Origin: Nitrosarchaeum sp.
GTDB lineage: Archaea > Thermoproteota > Nitrososphaeria > Nitrososphaerales > Nitrosopumilaceae
Assembly: GCA_023265135.1 (NCBI GenBank)
Contig: JAHFUM010000008.1
Location: 1 to 64,000 of the forward strand
DNA length: 64,000 nucleotides
Reading direction: 5' to 3'
Part shown: positions 4,484 through 37,864 of the stretch, piece after piece
Position numbering within the stretch: position 1 is the stretch's first letter
Layout of the letters: every line of letters starts with the position of its first letter
The notes under the pieces: model-generated
Told to the model about the DNA's origin: nothing
Database searches by the model: none
Seen by the model: the letters and a program-made list of their open reading frames with translations, nothing else
Translations under genes and position numbers: made by a program

Positions 4484-4882
4484 TTGTTCATGCCAGTTTC
4501 AAAGAGAAAGAAAGTATTACTTGTAGATGACGATATTAGAATCCACAATCTCCTGCAAAAATTTTCAAATTTACATAATATTACTCTCATATCAATAAAT
4601 GATGGAAAAAGCGGATTAGAGTTTATTCTAAAAAACAATTACGATGTGATTTTACTTGATTATATGATGCCAGGTTATTCAGGCATAGATTTACTATATG
4701 ATTTAGCAAAAAAAACAGATGTATCAAAATTAAATATTTTTATGTTTACAGCCATTGACATGAACCCATATGCAATAAATTCTCTCAAAAAGTTGGGCGT
4801 TAAAGAGATCATAAAAAAGCCTATCAAACTACAACTACTTCTCGAGTTGATAGATGTTGAAGATAGTAATCTGATTGAATGA
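4484..4882 (+). CDS. Single-domain response regulator receiver
   Basis: CheY-like receiver of about 130 residues with no output domain. The acidic pocket VDDD, the phosphoacceptor Asp in LLDYMMPG (residue 59), a conserved Thr in MFTA and the Lys of IIKKP are all present, so phosphorylation should work. The open frame begins with TTG, but an in-frame ATG two codons later (4490) is the more likely start. The next gene is a decayed kinase fragment; no intact cognate kinase lies beside it. It probably relays signals by protein-protein contact. Confidence 0.88.
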   Translation: MFMPVSKRKKVLLVDDDIRIHNLLQKFSNLHNITLISINDGKSGLEFILKNNYDVILLDYMMPGYSGIDLLYDLAKKTDVSKLNIFMFTAIDMNPYAINSLKKLGVKEIIKKPIKLQLLLELIDVEDSNLIE

Positions 4883-5089: not shown

Positions 5090-5452
5090 ATGATCTTTTT
5101 AAGTATCAATCATGTGAATTTAGTGTTGAGAGTATCGCATACATCTAAGAATCATCAAATAAAAGAACTAAAGCAAGAGAAACTACTGCTTGAAGGATGC
5201 CTAGAAGTTTTATCTAATAAAGATACAATAGATCAAGAAATTTTTGATTCTATGAATCAGGATTTGAGAACTCTGATAGCCTCAGTCAAAGTATATTCAG
5301 GCATACTTCTGAAAGGACATTTTGGAAAACTTGATGAAATACACCACAAAAAATTAAACTATGTCAAGACAAACACAAATTTGTTGCTAGATATAATTTT
5401 TAAAATGTTAGAAAAACCCAAACTAAGAAAAAAATTACATTCTAACAGTTAG
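5090..5452 (+). CDS. Degenerate histidine-kinase dimerisation fragment
   Basis: A 120-residue protein. Residues about 20-50 look like a coiled coil (IKELKQEKLLLEGCLEVL). Residues about 58-105 follow the pattern of a HisKA dimerisation helix pair: MNQDLRTLIASVKVYSGILL is laid out like the usual SHELRTPL...YSELL block. The phosphoacceptor His is replaced (NQDLRT instead of SHELRT), the Pro after RT is lost, and no ATPase domain follows before the stop. It is therefore either a kinase remnant or a small dimerising protein that no longer phosphorylates. It sits downstream of an intact receiver gene. Confidence 0.55.
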   Translation: MIFLSINHVNLVLRVSHTSKNHQIKELKQEKLLLEGCLEVLSNKDTIDQEIFDSMNQDLRTLIASVKVYSGILLKGHFGKLDEIHHKKLNYVKTNTNLLLDIIFKMLEKPKLRKKLHSNS

Positions 5453-18603: not shown

Positions 18604-18987
18604 TCATTTTTGAATAATGTTGGACAACACATTTTGTGGCATCATTTTTGAAATAAGAGATTGAATAGAAATGGGTTTTTGGTGTATTGCATATACACCT
18701 TGATTCTTGAGAAATTGTATCTGAAATTCTTCTAATTCAGATCCGCTGACAATTACTATTTTTCTAATCTCAGATGGCTTGTTACTTTTTAAATCAGCAA
18801 GAAATTCAAAGCCCGTATAGTAAGGCAGTCCCAGATCAAGTAAAATTACATCGTAATTACTCTTCAATACCAGTTCCAGTCCTTCTCTGCTGTCAACTGT
18901 ACTCTCATAATCATGTCCTGAAATTTTTAAAATATCTGAATATACTGCACTTATTTGAGGGCAATCTTCAATGTGAAGAATCTTCAT
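18604..18987 (-). CDS. Single-domain response regulator (twin A)
   Basis: 127-residue receiver: HIEDCP pocket, phosphoacceptor D51 in LLDLGLPYY, IVSGSE and HQKPIS with the switch Lys. No output domain. It is strikingly close to the receiver ending at 24623, sharing MKILHIEDCPQISA, EFQIQFLKNQGVY and LSNII near the end. The pair is a duplication. Its upstream region also shares a GTGTGTGCATTT motif with the twin. No kinase lies next to this copy. Confidence 0.9.
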   Translation of the reverse strand: MKILHIEDCPQISAVYSDILKISGHDYESTVDSREGLELVLKSNYDVILLDLGLPYYTGFEFLADLKSNKPSEIRKIVIVSGSELEEFQIQFLKNQGVYAIHQKPISIQSLISKMMPQNVLSNIIQK

Positions 18988-19115
18988 AAATCAAGAACTA
19001 TATGAATCAGGCATAAATGAGGGTGTGTGCATTTTGAACAGCCTTCTCCTTTAGTGTAACTTTATAGTACATACATCATGGAAAATTTAGGGATTTGTGG
19101 GGAATGTGAAGCAAA

Positions 19116-20006
19116 ATGATGGTACAGCAAACAACTCCTCTATTTGACTCTGAGCCTAATACTCAAATGTACGAGTACAGATTATCTCTAGAAAAAGTTC
19201 AGGCAGAACTTTTGCAATACGGTCTGACATCCAATCAAAGTAGGGTGTTTATTTTTCTTGGAAAGTATGGTGCAAAGACTGCCACCGAGGTATGCAAGGC
19301 CCTCAAATTACCTAGAACAGAGACATATCACTTGCTTTCAGCACTACAAAATAGAGGAATTGTTTCAGCTACATTTGAGCATCCGATTCAATTTGTCGCA
19401 TTGCCATTAAACAAGGCAATATGGATTCTAGTAAACTCTGAAAAGGAACGAGTAAAGTCCCTTGAGCAGATGGGAAAAGGACTATCTGAACTATGGGATA
19501 ATGTTCCAACTTTTGACTCACAACACGATGAGGTTGAAGAGAAATTCCAAATGCTGCAAGGTGCAAACCAGATACAATCAAAGATTACAGAGTTGGCTGA
19601 TACCTTTACAGATGAATTTTTGATACTTGGTTCTGAGAAGGATTATGTCAAGTTGTATCACGGGGAACTCTTTGAGTCTTTAAAATCCAAAAAGAAATTC
19701 AGATTCCTAAGTGCATGTTCTGAAAAGACTGCCTACATATTTGATGATTTGGAAAGAAAGAACATCAAAAAACTGGATAAAGACATCCCAAATCATTTGT
19801 GCTTTATACTAAAGGACGACACGGAATTGTTGTTCTTTACAAAAAATGCAAATTCACCTAAAGAGCCATTTGCAATGTGGACAAATTCCAAATCAATGAT
19901 ATATTCAATGAAGTTGCTCTTTGAATCCCTTTGGATGAATTCAAAAAATGAAGGAAAGAATAAAGATGCAAATATGAGAAATGCACACAATGTAACACAA
20001 AAATGA
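19116..20006 (+). CDS. TrmB-family transcriptional regulator
   Basis: A 296-residue protein with an N-terminal winged helix (YGLTSNQSRVFIFLGKYG, then AKTATEVCKALKLPRTETYH), followed by a coiled-coil hinge and a C-terminal effector-like domain. This is the TrmB organisation. It is divergent from the receiver twin A with 128 bases between them, so it may regulate that gene. Start is the first of ATG-ATG. Confidence 0.82.
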   Translation: MMVQQTTPLFDSEPNTQMYEYRLSLEKVQAELLQYGLTSNQSRVFIFLGKYGAKTATEVCKALKLPRTETYHLLSALQNRGIVSATFEHPIQFVALPLNKAIWILVNSEKERVKSLEQMGKGLSELWDNVPTFDSQHDEVEEKFQMLQGANQIQSKITELADTFTDEFLILGSEKDYVKLYHGELFESLKSKKKFRFLSACSEKTAYIFDDLERKNIKKLDKDIPNHLCFILKDDTELLFFTKNANSPKEPFAMWTNSKSMIYSMKLLFESLWMNSKNEGKNKDANMRNAHNVTQK

Positions 20007-32405: not shown

Positions 32406-33212
32406 TCAACGAAATCCTTCTTGATCATTGAATCTGTTTTCTTGATTTTGCTTCCTAAATATTTTGATGTGATCATTAACTCCAAACAACAAAAAAAGAT
32501 AAGCCCAAAGATAGAGAATATCAATAGGATGTCCAGTGTAATATGTTTCGTCTAGTGAGAGAAAGAGAAAACCATAATCAGATACAACAAAGCAAAGCAT
32601 TCCAATTAACAAACAGGACCAAAGAAAATTTACTTGACCTCTAAAAAACAAGACCAGACCAATAATGATAGGTGCAAGAGCAATTGTATCTCCCATGGGA
32701 TATGCAAGACCTAGCATTGTCTCAAATTCAGAAAGGTCTGATTTTTGCAAGATTGTATAATATATCAAAAATGCAGTAATTGTTATGAGGATTCCAATAA
32801 CTAGGGTCACCATCTTGGCAGAGATCACATTTCTGAAAGGCTTTAGATAATAAATTGTAAATATAAAATAAAGTGGATATCCGGCTAACCATAAAATGTC
32901 TGCCTCAGATGGCCAAGGATTTACTTTGTATATTAATTCATAAACTGACCATATTCTTTCTGCAATGAACCATAAAATAACAAATGTGGTAAAAAAAACC
33001 CAGGCTCTTCCAAAGTTGCCATGAGCTCTTTCATTGATTATCAACAATATTGAAACTACAACTAGTGGTGCTGTGATTGCCAAATTCAAAAGATGGGATG
33101 TCAAAGTTGCATAATTTTCTCCAAAATAATTAGCACTCATTATTGCCAATGCAGTTAAGGCAAGTATCAATACAAAGAAAGTTCTACTTGTAGACAAAAA
33201 ACTAGTTTGCAA
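32406..33212 (-). CDS. Polytopic membrane protein (about eight or nine helices)
   Basis: 268 residues, almost entirely membrane helices, with charged loops PWPSEADILWLAGYP and LSEFETMLGLAYP. The motif ADILWLAGYPLYF recalls the multi-helix input parts of some signalling proteins, but there is no kinase or cyclase domain. It is separated by one base from the receiver gene upstream on the same strand, so the two are one transcript and probably one pathway. Confidence 0.68.
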   Translation of the reverse strand: MQTSFLSTSRTFFVLILALTALAIMSANYFGENYATLTSHLLNLAITAPLVVVSILLIINERAHGNFGRAWVFFTTFVILWFIAERIWSVYELIYKVNPWPSEADILWLAGYPLYFIFTIYYLKPFRNVISAKMVTLVIGILITITAFLIYYTILQKSDLSEFETMLGLAYPMGDTIALAPIIIGLVLFFRGQVNFLWSCLLIGMLCFVVSDYGFLFLSLDETYYTGHPIDILYLWAYLFLLFGVNDHIKIFRKQNQENRFNDQEGFR

Positions 33213-33213
33213 A

Positions 33214-33864
33214 TTACTTGCTTATCACAAATAGAAAGTCACTTATGTATTGTTGACCCTCAAATTCTGCTAAATGTTCCCTGATTGTTTTTAGTATTGC
33301 AGTAGAACCATTACCAAATATCTCTTGAAGAATGTCTTTGAGATACTCTGGGTGCTCAAGGCAATCAGAAAAATAACAATTGTATTTTGCATATAGTCGG
33401 TTTCCTACTTCATTGATAGTAGATGGGCTGATTTTTAAAAGCGCCTCTGTTATTACGAAGATCACAAGGGCTTTTTTTTCATTATCAATTTTGCCCATGT
33501 CTTTTGTTTGGGTTATTTTCTCAAGCAGTGTTGTTATTTTTTTCATATCCAACGGCTTAAAGAAGACCTCAGTTGGTTTGAAACGATAGAGTTTTTCCAA
33601 TATTTCTAAATCCTGGTTTGCAGTTATGATTACTATCTTTGCATTTGAATCCAAATCTCGAATTTCTTTTAGTGCATAGATGCCGTCATATTGAGGCATA
33701 TTTAGATCTGAAAACAAAATATCAGGTCTGTATTTTTTGTATAACTTCACAGCTTCTTTTCCATTATGTCCAACTGAAACAACTTTAACACCAATCATCT
33801 CCAGATATTTAACAAAAGCATCGACGGTATTTTTATCATCATCAATAACAATTGCTGTGATCAA
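33214..33864 (-). CDS. Response regulator with extra C-terminal helical domain
   Basis: Receiver (IDDDKN, phosphoacceptor Asp in LFSDLNMPQYDG, IITANQD, FFKPLD) followed by an about 95-residue helical domain (ALVIFVITEALLKIS...LADFEG-like...SDFLFVISK) that I cannot name. The frame is open from 33972, but the first 36 codons lack the receiver start; TTG at 33864 (ITAIVIDDD) is the likely start. It is co-transcribed with the polytopic membrane protein downstream. Confidence 0.78.
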   Translation of the reverse strand: MITAIVIDDDKNTVDAFVKYLEMIGVKVVSVGHNGKEAVKLYKKYRPDILFSDLNMPQYDGIYALKEIRDLDSNAKIVIITANQDLEILEKLYRFKPTEVFFKPLDMKKITTLLEKITQTKDMGKIDNEKKALVIFVITEALLKISPSTINEVGNRLYAKYNCYFSDCLEHPEYLKDILQEIFGNGSTAILKTIREHLAEFEGQQYISDFLFVISK

Positions 33865-33972
33865 TAAGTTAAGAACATAACACTTTCTATAAAAAGAATT
33901 TGTTAGATGTGGAAAGAATTTGGAATTACCTTGCCTATAGTTACAGAAGGAAATAGTGCAAAATCTATCCAC

Positions 33973-34404: not shown

Positions 34405-34758
34405 TTAATTTTTTAGGACGTCCAATAAGTTTTGTAATTGAACTGGTTTTTTCAAGCATGCATTGATCCCTCGTACTTTAAGTTTTTCAATTTCATCATT
34501 TGTGATTGATGAAGCTGTAAACAGTATGATTTTATTTGATTTTAATTTACCGGCTTTTTCTAATTCATTAATTACATCATGACCGCTTACTTCAGGCATG
34601 GATATGTCTAACAATATGGCATCATACTTTCCGTGTTTAATTAACTCAAGACCATTTCTACCATCGTTGGATATGTCACAATCAATTTCTTTCAATTTCA
34701 GATATTTTGACAACATACTTGTTATGTTAACATTGTCATCAATCAAAAGTATCTTCAT
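34405..34758 (-). CDS. Single-domain response regulator
   Basis: 117 residues: IDDNVNI, D51 in LLDISMPEVSG, LFTASSIT and CLKKPVQ. No output domain. Its FTASSIT...KLKVRGI-NACL segment is closely similar to the receiver at 36.2 kb, so these two are paralogues. Confidence 0.9.
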   Translation of the reverse strand: MKILLIDDNVNITSMLSKYLKLKEIDCDISNDGRNGLELIKHGKYDAILLDISMPEVSGHDVINELEKAGKLKSNKIILFTASSITNDEIEKLKVRGINACLKKPVQLQNLLDVLKN

Positions 34759-35100: not shown

Positions 35101-36240
35101 TTATTTCTCACATGTCACTTCGCTTTTCTTTCCTCCATCATAAAGAGATTTTATAGCTGCAACATCACATTCAGAAACATAAGGATAGTTTGTTTCAATT
35201 GTTGGATGCATGAGATCTTCAGTAGCTGTAGTGTGTGCTAGTCCAAATGCATGACCAAGCTCATGTCGTAAAACAGTCTTGAACTGCGTATCACTTAGTT
35301 TATCTACACCATAGATGGTAATGGATGATTTTAGTATTTGATTTTGTGATTCATCTGCAATATTTCTTGTGTACCCAGAATAGCCATCACCACTTTGCTG
35401 ATCACTTAAGATAATTGTGATCTCTCCTTCTCCTTTTGCAGATTCTGCCACTTCAAGATGGGTTGGAATATAAAATTCTGAAGATTCTTTGGAAGCTGAA
35501 TTTAATGCACCTGCCCACCCAGTATAATATGTAGAAGAGGTTCCCTTTGGACCTTTTTGTAATAGGGAATCATCAATCTGAATAGTTTCATTAGATAGAA
35601 CAATCTCTTTTATCAAAGGTACTTTATCTGGATACTTTTCAGCATTAACTATTCCCACATGCAATACGGACCCAGAAACTAGTCGCCACGATAGCCAAGT
35701 GTTAATTGTGTCTCCTTTTAGATTCTGAATCTCATACCCGGTATTGAGTGGGGCATTTGGAGATATTTTGTAGTCTGGGCCCATGAAAGATGATAGATTC
35801 ATGGAATACGGTACAAAAATTCCTGTAATTATAATTCCTGCCATAGCTAATGAGAGATAATATTTTTTATTAACAGATATTGCCTTAATTTCCTCTGATT
35901 TCATAATACCATCAAAAGCTAATCTTTCTTGTTCAAGTTCTATTCTTTGTCCATGTTCTTCTTGAATTTTGTTTTTTAAAACTTGTTCAGAGTTTTCCAG
36001 TTTAGATACCTGTTTATCAAGATATTTTGCTTCATCTTCTAAAAATATTTTTTCTTGTTTTTCGTTTTTGTACTGATGTGAAACTTGGTCTAATTTTTCT
36101 TTAAGACTTCTTTCAGATTTTTCGAGATTAAAGATCTTTTGATCAAGATGCTTTGCGTGATCGTCAAGAAATATATTTTCTTGCTCAATCTCTTTCATTT
36201 CATGTTTTGAATCTCTTTCTCCACGATATTTATTATTCAT
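35101..36240 (-). CDS. Membrane-anchored metzincin protease with coiled-coil cytoplasmic tail
   Basis: 379 residues in three parts. Residues 15-125 are a charged coiled coil containing two related units of about 45 residues (each with IFL-D/E-D-A-K-L-D...LE-SE). Residues 128-147 are a membrane helix. The outer part ends in a zinc-protease site RHELGHAFGLAH (H326, H330, H336, catalytic E327) and a Met-turn DLMHP (M344). The layout is matrixin-like. The protease should face outside, while the coiled coil faces the cytoplasm. Its start overlaps the receiver gene upstream by 8 bases. Confidence 0.85.
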   Translation of the reverse strand: MNNKYRGERDSKHEMKEIEQENIFLDDHAKHLDQKIFNLEKSERSLKEKLDQVSHQYKNEKQEKIFLEDEAKYLDKQVSKLENSEQVLKNKIQEEHGQRIELEQERLAFDGIMKSEEIKAISVNKKYYLSLAMAGIIITGIFVPYSMNLSSFMGPDYKISPNAPLNTGYEIQNLKGDTINTWLSWRLVSGSVLHVGIVNAEKYPDKVPLIKEIVLSNETIQIDDSLLQKGPKGTSSTYYTGWAGALNSASKESSEFYIPTHLEVAESAKGEGEITIILSDQQSGDGYSGYTRNIADESQNQILKSSITIYGVDKLSDTQFKTVLRHELGHAFGLAHTTATEDLMHPTIETNYPYVSECDVAAIKSLYDGGKKSEVTCEK

Positions 36241-36628
36241 GATTCATTATCTCCTTGTTTTGGATTGACTGCGTAATAACTCGTAAAAGCTCTTCAGTGT
36301 TTGCGGGTTTCCTAAGGCATGCATAGACTCCTTTTTTTGTAAATTCATCTATTTCTTCTTCAGTAATAGATGAGGCAGTAAACAGTATGATTTTTTCTGA
36401 TTTTAGCTTATCTTCTTTTGCTAGTTTTTCTAATACATCAATTCCACTAAAGTCAGGCATGGAGACATCTAAAAGTACTACATCGTGATTTCCAGTCTTG
36501 ATTAAATTAAAACCATTTCTACCGTCATGGGTCGCTATACACGCAAATCCTTTAGATTCTAAGAATTTCGATATGAGTTTTAGTATACTTTTATTGTCAT
36601 CGATGATCAGTACATTACCAATAGGCAT
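36233..36628 (-). CDS. Response regulator overlapping the protease gene
   Basis: 131-residue receiver: IIDDNKS, D54 in LLDVSMPDFSG, LFTASSIT and CLRKPANTE. It has a short tail instead of an output domain. Its stop lies 8 bases inside the protease gene, so the proteins are made from one message and are likely to interact, possibly through the protease coiled coil. Paralogous to the receiver at 34.4 kb. Confidence 0.9.
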   Translation of the reverse strand: MPIGNVLIIDDNKSILKLISKFLESKGFACIATHDGRNGFNLIKTGNHDVVLLDVSMPDFSGIDVLEKLAKEDKLKSEKIILFTASSITEEEIDEFTKKGVYACLRKPANTEELLRVITQSIQNKEIMNHE

Positions 36629-36826
36629 ACATTCTGTTAGATGGATTTATAATAAAAGATGGTGTTTTTTAAAAAAAACAACAATTTCAGGCTCAAATTT
36701 GGAATGCTTTTCAATAAATCACTCTAGGAAATTTTTTAATTTTTTAGAATAACCGTAGAGAATATTTACGTTAATATTAAAAAAGCTAATAACCTGTACC
36801 TTGTAATTAAAACATAGGTAACCTGA

Positions 36827-37864
36827 GTGGATAATCACAGTATAGATGTTGAAAAGGATGTAAAATCACTAATTAAAGAAAGTGTCTTTGATAAAAAATA
36901 CACTGATTTTGAAGATCAATTTCATAATTTGGCAAAAGATATTTCTACAATTCTAGAATTGGATGAATTAGATGCTAAAGTTTATCTTCGTCTTTTAAAA
37001 ACAGGACCTAATACAGCTAGCGCAGTAGCAAAGGAATTAGATATAGATCGTGCTAAAATGTATCGAACTGTAGACAAAATGGCAAAGATAGGAATTGTTT
37101 CAATGACTTTATCTTCACCAAAACTTTGCATTCCATTACCACCAGAAGAGGTCTCAAAGATAATCATACAAAAAAAAGAAGACTCGATTAATACGATTAA
37201 AAAGAGTTGGAAAGGAACAATACAAAAAATTGAAAAATATACCACGTCGAATTTTCGCAGTAATATTCCAACGTTTCGCGTTATAAATGGAAGAGAAAAC
37301 ATTTTTCTCAACATTGAACATATGATTGAGAATTCTTCAGACGTAGTTTACATAATTACAACTTTGGAAGATATTTCAAAAATGTATCATAGTAACATAC
37401 CAGACAAAATATCGATTTGTGAAAAAAGTGGCGGTCAAGTTAGACTTTTAGTAGATCTGAATGATCCCAAGTTATCTTCATTTGTAATTAGATTTGGAGC
37501 AACTGAAACAAGAATTAGCAAGTCTTCTTTGAAAGGCAGAATTGTTTTAGAAAAAGGAAAACAGATGATAATGTCAGATACCAAGTCAAATGAAGGTGAG
37601 CAAATTAATGCCAAATCAGACTTTTCTCTTTATACAGATTCTCCTGCCATGGTAAATAATGTTCAAAATTTATGTGAACATCTATGGGCAGAATCAAAAC
37701 CAATAAAAATGATGGACGCCAATGATTTTAAAAAAGAGCCGCAATCTACAACCTTTATGATGGAACCCGAATACAAACAAATATTCAACCTTAAAGAAGC
37801 AAAACAAGAAAATATAATATTAAACAGTCTTTTAAAAGAACTTGAAGATATTGTAAGTGATTAA
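36827..37864 (+). CDS. TrmB-family transcriptional regulator
   Basis: 345 residues. Winged helix at about 43-105 (LDELDAKVYLRLLKTGPNTA, VAKELDIDRAKMYRTVDKM), then an effector domain with ENIFLNIEHMIENSSDVVYI and IRFGATETRI. A helical tail of about 50 residues (EYKQIFNLKEAKQENII) is longer than in the other TrmB protein here. GTG start. It is divergent from the receiver/protease pair and is a candidate regulator of it. Confidence 0.82.
   Translation: MDNHSIDVEKDVKSLIKESVFDKKYTDFEDQFHNLAKDISTILELDELDAKVYLRLLKTGPNTASAVAKELDIDRAKMYRTVDKMAKIGIVSMTLSSPKLCIPLPPEEVSKIIIQKKEDSINTIKKSWKGTIQKIEKYTTSNFRSNIPTFRVINGRENIFLNIEHMIENSSDVVYIITTLEDISKMYHSNIPDKISICEKSGGQVRLLVDLNDPKLSSFVIRFGATETRISKSSLKGRIVLEKGKQMIMSDTKSNEGEQINAKSDFSLYTDSPAMVNNVQNLCEHLWAESKPIKMMDANDFKKEPQSTTFMMEPEYKQIFNLKEAKQENIILNSLLKELEDIVSD

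Follow-up and report, generated by a model that had tools for sequence, protein, structure and literature searches.

A receiver recurrently paired with an outward-facing membrane matrixin in Nitrosopumilaceae suggests a two-component module with a protease output

We found that a single-domain response-regulator receiver (REC) and a membrane-anchored matrixin metalloprotease, encoded side by side in a Nitrosarchaeum genome, form a gene pair that recurs in the Nitrosopumilaceae; the conclusion that this pairing is not accidental is strongly supported. Phosphate-relay switch proteins are normally used by cells to control genes; the recurrent pairing in ammonia-oxidising archaea suggests that a cell could use them to switch, from within, an enzyme on its outside. 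We observed the architecture of the module, its gene pairing, the co-variation of its two proteins and their fusions. Our preferred reading, which we consider somewhat probable, is that of a Nitrosopumilaceae two-component module with a matrixin protease as its output, anchored in the membrane, facing outward and controlled from the inside out.

The pair lies in the window, that is, the whole 64,000-nucleotide stretch of DNA that we analysed (Table 1). The initial annotation had proposed a receiver gene overlapping the protease gene by 8 bases, and both open reading frames and the overlap (ATGAATAA) were present as described, with both genes on the minus strand. Besides its PF00072 match, the receiver has a complete phospho-acceptor site (the acidic pair D,D, the phospho-Asp, Thr and Lys). 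It is a single-domain REC and has no DNA-binding part, as had been claimed; a PDB sequence search with it returned no match at 1e-15. The protease scored 40.3 bits against the PF00413 cut-off of 24, and its HExxHxxGxxH motif and Met-turn (DLM) fall in invariant alignment columns. A Foldseek search with its predicted model placed it in the MMP fold: the best solved matches were all MMPs (probability 1.0), human MMP-3, MMP-7 and MMP-10 among them, with TM-scores of ~0.5-0.6 over the target.

The remaining parts of the protease also agreed with the initial annotation, which had described a coiled coil of two repeats, a single membrane helix and a matrixin site on the outside. The two coil repeats share 19 of 42 residues, compared with a maximum of 13/42 in 500 shuffles. 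In the AlphaFold model, residues 4-146 form one helix and the C-terminal domain is folded (pLDDT ~75-95 in most blocks). Positive-inside charge indicated an N-in/C-out orientation for all 75 of the 75 non-redundant single-TM members (mean K+R of 4.5 on the N side vs 0.6). The ectodomain cysteines 358 and 377 were kept in 144/144 and 138/138, respectively, of the members that have a residue at the aligned position, and a disulfide may join these two C-terminal cysteines, which would fit an external domain.

Table 1. Coordinates of the receiver-protease pair and of related features in the window
Feature	Position	Strand	Evidence and remarks
Single-domain receiver (REC), 131 aa	36233..36628	-	PF00072 E=1e-22
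Coiled coil-TM-extracellular matrixin metalloprotease, 379 aa	35101..36240	-	PF00413 E=3.9e-10; MMP fold matches
Two 42-residue coiled-coil repeats, residues 16-99	35944..36195	-	Repeat comparison, family alignment
Single transmembrane helix, residues ~129-147, N-in	35800..35856	-	Hydropathy, positive-inside charge
Extracellular catalytic domain, residues 167-378	35107..35742	-	Family model ECTO E=5e-97
Zinc site HELGHAFGLAH	35233..35265	-	H326 and E327 in 145/145 members, H336 in 139/145
Second single-domain REC, downstream of the protease	34405..34758	-	PF00072 5.9e-20; 52% identical to the first REC
Divergent TrmB-type regulator	36827..37864	+	PF01978 4.5e-14
REC ahead of the stand-alone DHp-like gene	4484..4882	+	PF00072 2.8e-19
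Stand-alone DHp-like protein	5090..5452	+	Family model DHP 9e-12; PF00512 9e-4, below cut-off

Relatives of the protease were present in 118 out of 250 Nitrosopumilaceae genomes; within the class, strong full-length matches were confined to this family, with weak matches only elsewhere. We classified 145 members from 86 genomes and fetched the loci of the best members. Because genes were called mechanically and many of the genomes are draft MAGs, an individual locus may be misread; none of the counts depends on any one locus. Several layouts recurred: kinase-REC-[DHp-coil-TM-matrixin], REC-[coil-TM-matrixin]-kinase, [matrixin]-REC, kinase-REC-small DHp gene-[TM-matrixin] (L070 and L073) and kinase-DHp gene-[TM-matrixin] (L078 and L080), and in two members (L045 and L227) the REC and the TM-matrixin were fused in one chain. 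REC and kinase both lay within the protease operon at 15 out of 86 non-redundant loci, and a two-component gene was found on either side or in the chain at 57 out of 86, with about one-third of members having none beside them. Some members were joined to sensor-type N-terminal domains (dCache or 7TM). No protease-bearing chain examined contained HATPase_c (PF02518 or the HATP model).

The pairing was far more frequent than among control genes. A REC lay directly upstream on the same strand at 25 out of 84 protease loci (non-redundant at 80% identity) but at only 2 out of 490 control genes, which were the other genes of at least 150 aa in the same receiver-rich loci (Fisher p=1e-20). Genome-wide, receivers numbered 12-30 per genome of ~1.6-1.8 Mb, giving a chance of ~1% per gene; this gene-density control was based on receiver counts and the other genes in the fetched loci. 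Chance adjacency was thus ruled out, and the co-occurrence and order that the initial annotation had singled out for checking in other genomes proved to be conserved. Mirror-tree comparison of REC and protease distances gave r=0.65. Exchanging receivers within genera brought the mean down to 0.14, and 0 of 2000 permutations reached the observed value; this within-genus permutation ruled out shared species ancestry alone as the source of the co-variation. The phospho-Asp was kept in 45 out of 47 paired RECs, with Glu in the other two. Taken together, conserved adjacency, co-variation, kinase operons and the two one-chain fusions strongly support the suggested link between receiver and membrane protease.

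Members of ~420-470 aa have, ahead of the coil, a HisKA domain (PF00512) above the cut-off and no ATPase domain. Such HisKA-matrixin chains comprised 17 members from 16 genomes and five genera. In G223, G235, G180 and the Nitrosarchaeum locus L177, HisKA (E 9e-12 to 9e-10) and matrixin occurred in one chain; in all four, a REC lies just upstream and the operon also has an adjoining full kinase, which in G180 is downstream. The acceptor His was kept in 16 out of 17 chains, with Asp instead in L074. Small stand-alone DHp genes also occur near proteases; several keep the acceptor His and two have Asp. The kinases neighbouring DHp-proteases combine dCache or PAS sensors with HisKA and HATPase_c. 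In the predicted model of the L177 protein, the second helix of a DHp hairpin (residues 98-231) extends along the coil and enters the membrane; the arrangement of parts in this model is unreliable because its overall pTM is 0.45.

From these features we infer the direction of signalling, the effect on protease activity and the substrate. In the full form of the module, a sensor kinase would phosphorylate the single-domain receiver, which would dock on, or exchange phosphate with, the kinase-less DHp that forms the protease's cytoplasmic end. The resulting change would pass along the continuous helix formed by DHp, coiled coil and membrane segment, and the external zinc protease would thereby be switched and trim a surface protein. 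We favour this inside-out direction for three reasons: 138 out of 145 members keep the zinc site, the kinase comes with a sensor of its own, and the receivers lack any other output. What counts against it is the absence of DHp and operon kinase from the window copy, the broken zinc sites of some members and the third of members that have no two-component neighbour.

The reverse direction, which we judge unlikely, deserves the most weight among the alternatives. Here, the matrixin-fold ectodomain would be a sensor that binds a peptide or surface protein, with or without cleavage, and the DHp would tune the REC, for instance by serving alongside the main kinase as a phosphatase or a sink for phosphate. 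Phosphatase activity has been suggested for archaeal HisKA-only proteins (PMC5847659), so it is conceivable for a DHp without an ATPase domain, and the sensor-type dCache and 7TM domains of some members would suit such a role. The zinc site is lost in six or seven members that keep the fold. Indeed, both REC fusions (L045:3385-4842 and L227:3435-4769) have broken sites (HEFGHALGLSN and HEFGRALGLGN, respectively), as do four paralogues with extra TM helices, and the fold therefore appears to be used there without ordinary catalysis; it is these members that keep a sensor reading in consideration. However, zinc ligands and Met-turn are kept in ~95% of members, the operon kinase already has its own dCache or PAS sensor, and the order DHp-TM-ectodomain is the reverse of that in a normal sensor kinase. 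Pseudo-protease paralogues with extra TM helices (for example, L042:5519-7426 and L041:4339-5433) were found beside intact copies.

The protease in the window differs from its closest kin. A Pfam search found no HisKA (PF00512) in the 379-aa protein, and the possibility of a DHp hidden upstream was ruled out, that space being filled by the REC open reading frame. Its closest kin (L052, L049, L050 and L177) all scored above the PF00512 cut-off. We conclude that the window copy has probably lost its DHp, because its ectodomain nests among kinase-REC-[DHp-matrixin] proteins (SH-aLRT 92) and its coil aligns with the part that follows the DHp in relatives. The initial annotation had named the coiled coil as a possible partner of the receiver. 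The coil itself stands, but it is probably only a remnant; since the closest kin carry HisKA before the same coil, the ancestral partner of the REC was probably the DHp.

No kinase adjoins the pair at the window locus, the nearest kinases lying at 21-26 kb of the window; a two-component operon with a kinase is a feature of relatives. The genome (1.8 Mb, 99.96% complete) encodes 12 receivers and six HATPase kinases, and seven of the 12 receivers are on the single 71-kb contig that contains the window. In the window copy, the REC may act directly on the coil or via a DHp protein encoded elsewhere, and a kinase encoded elsewhere would be the source of phosphate. The stand-alone DHp-like protein (Table 1), with a REC gene ahead of it, is a possible partner in trans; it is 49% identical to L080:3547-3888, a DHp gene in genome G129 whose reading frame overlaps that of a protease. 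The acceptor His of the window protein is replaced by Gln.

These losses would also fit a decaying relic, in which the REC of the window genome no longer controls the protease; this reading would be compatible with the preferred one for the relatives. The absence of a DHp that the nearest kin carry, the His-to-Gln change in the stand-alone DHp and the lack of a kinase beside the pair all point that way. We nevertheless consider decay improbable: both open reading frames are intact with all site residues present, and the same DHp-less, overlapping REC-protease pair occurs in another Nitrosarchaeum species (L060). More doubtful still is co-expression alone, in which one signal would drive the joint transcription of REC and protease and the two proteins would make no contact, as the 8-bp overlap, the short gaps and the divergent TrmB regulator might suggest, but against which stand the in-chain DHp and in-chain REC of relatives, REC-protease co-variation beyond genus and the lack of DNA-binding output in paired RECs.

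The TrmB-type regulator that the initial annotation placed divergent from the pair was confirmed, and several relatives, though not most, have a TrmB-like gene upstream of the protease in divergent orientation. Two receivers of the window are divergent from TrmB-like regulators (18604-20006 and 36233-37864); a similar arrangement, divergence of receiver and HTH_20 genes, has been mentioned for thaumarchaea (PMC5847659). Elsewhere in the window, 32406-33212 (minus strand) encodes a multi-TM protein without a Pfam match, the domain of which also stands N-terminally in some matrixin fusions (L041-L044) and in a 784-aa kinase (L118); its neighbour here is a REC gene (33214-33972) weakly similar to NitrOD5. 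Three other matrixins of the window genome whose surroundings were read appear to be secreted, and none adjoins a receiver on the same strand; one has a divergent receiver. A secreted-looking 457-aa matrixin (L176:3687-5616, contig C14 of G000) lies near a receiver gene in divergent orientation.

In clades without an adjoining kinase, the protease gene was often accompanied by a gene for a secreted-looking protein of 773-844 aa (31 loci, some cut by contig ends; for example, L120:6090-8432, L143:746-3073 and L138:6183-8684). It has an Ig-like (Big_1) match, an apparent signal peptide and a C-terminal hydrophobic segment, and in some loci a CBS-domain gene lies between the two genes. This protein is a candidate substrate or partner of the protease. 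The window genome had only a weak match (E=5e-5), and we therefore do not claim this substrate for it. The fuller version of the preferred reading, a phosphorelay that would end outside the cell, with the REC acting on a kinase-less DHp or remnant coil to switch a type II matrixin and the Ig-like protein as candidate substrate in sister clades, seems to us evenly poised.

The individual domains are known; we could not find their combination and orientation described. Consistent with the initial annotation, which knew of no such system, no description of a receiver-coupled surface protease module was found in the open literature. The text of the 2018 archaeal two-component census names neither 'protease' nor 'peptidase' (PMC5847659), and a sponge-symbiont paper lists matrixins as annotations only. 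With matrixins and MMPs (PF00413, MEROPS M10), the proteins described here share HExGHxxGxxH, the Met-turn and an MMP-like predicted fold. They differ in their N-in anchor with cytoplasmic signalling parts, in that no cysteine-switch propeptide was seen, and in a conserved, family-specific N-terminal part of the ectodomain (NL-GDT and GW-GAL motifs) beyond the Pfam match.

Archaeal HisKA-only proteins resemble the DHp-proteases in having a DHp with a conserved His and no ATPase domain (HATPase), and a role in phosphotransfer or dephosphorylation has been suggested for them (Galperin et al. 2018, PMC5847659). They carry N-terminal PAS/GAF sensors, and reports of them come mainly from Archaeoglobi and Methanomicrobia (PMC5847659); none has been described with a protease. 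Similarly, the paired RECs resemble the CheY-like stand-alone receivers of thaumarchaea in being single RECs with an intact phosphorylation site. REC-only proteins account for ~77% of the response regulators in thaumarchaea, and few of them have a conserved neighbourhood that would point to a target (PMC5847659). By contrast, the protease-paired RECs have a conserved neighbourhood, and one large set of stand-alone receivers thus gains a concrete partner.

The closest parallel in logic is LapD-LapG of Pseudomonas, in which a cytoplasmic c-di-GMP signal controls an outside protease from the inside out, the substrate being a surface adhesin (PMC3032545, PMC3032553). The likeness, inside-out control of a protease beyond the membrane, is one of analogy only, and the same holds for the resemblance of the protease/Ig-like protein pair to the protease and adhesin of the Lap system. 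LapD signals through c-di-GMP and works with a periplasmic protease that is a separate protein, whereas the module described here relies on a receiver and a DHp, and its zinc protease shares one chain with the membrane helix. If the preferred reading is true, the output of a two-component system in ammonia-oxidising archaea would be a transmembrane, extracellular enzyme that acts directly, without transcription, and the module would be a defined case of inside-out protease control in Archaea.
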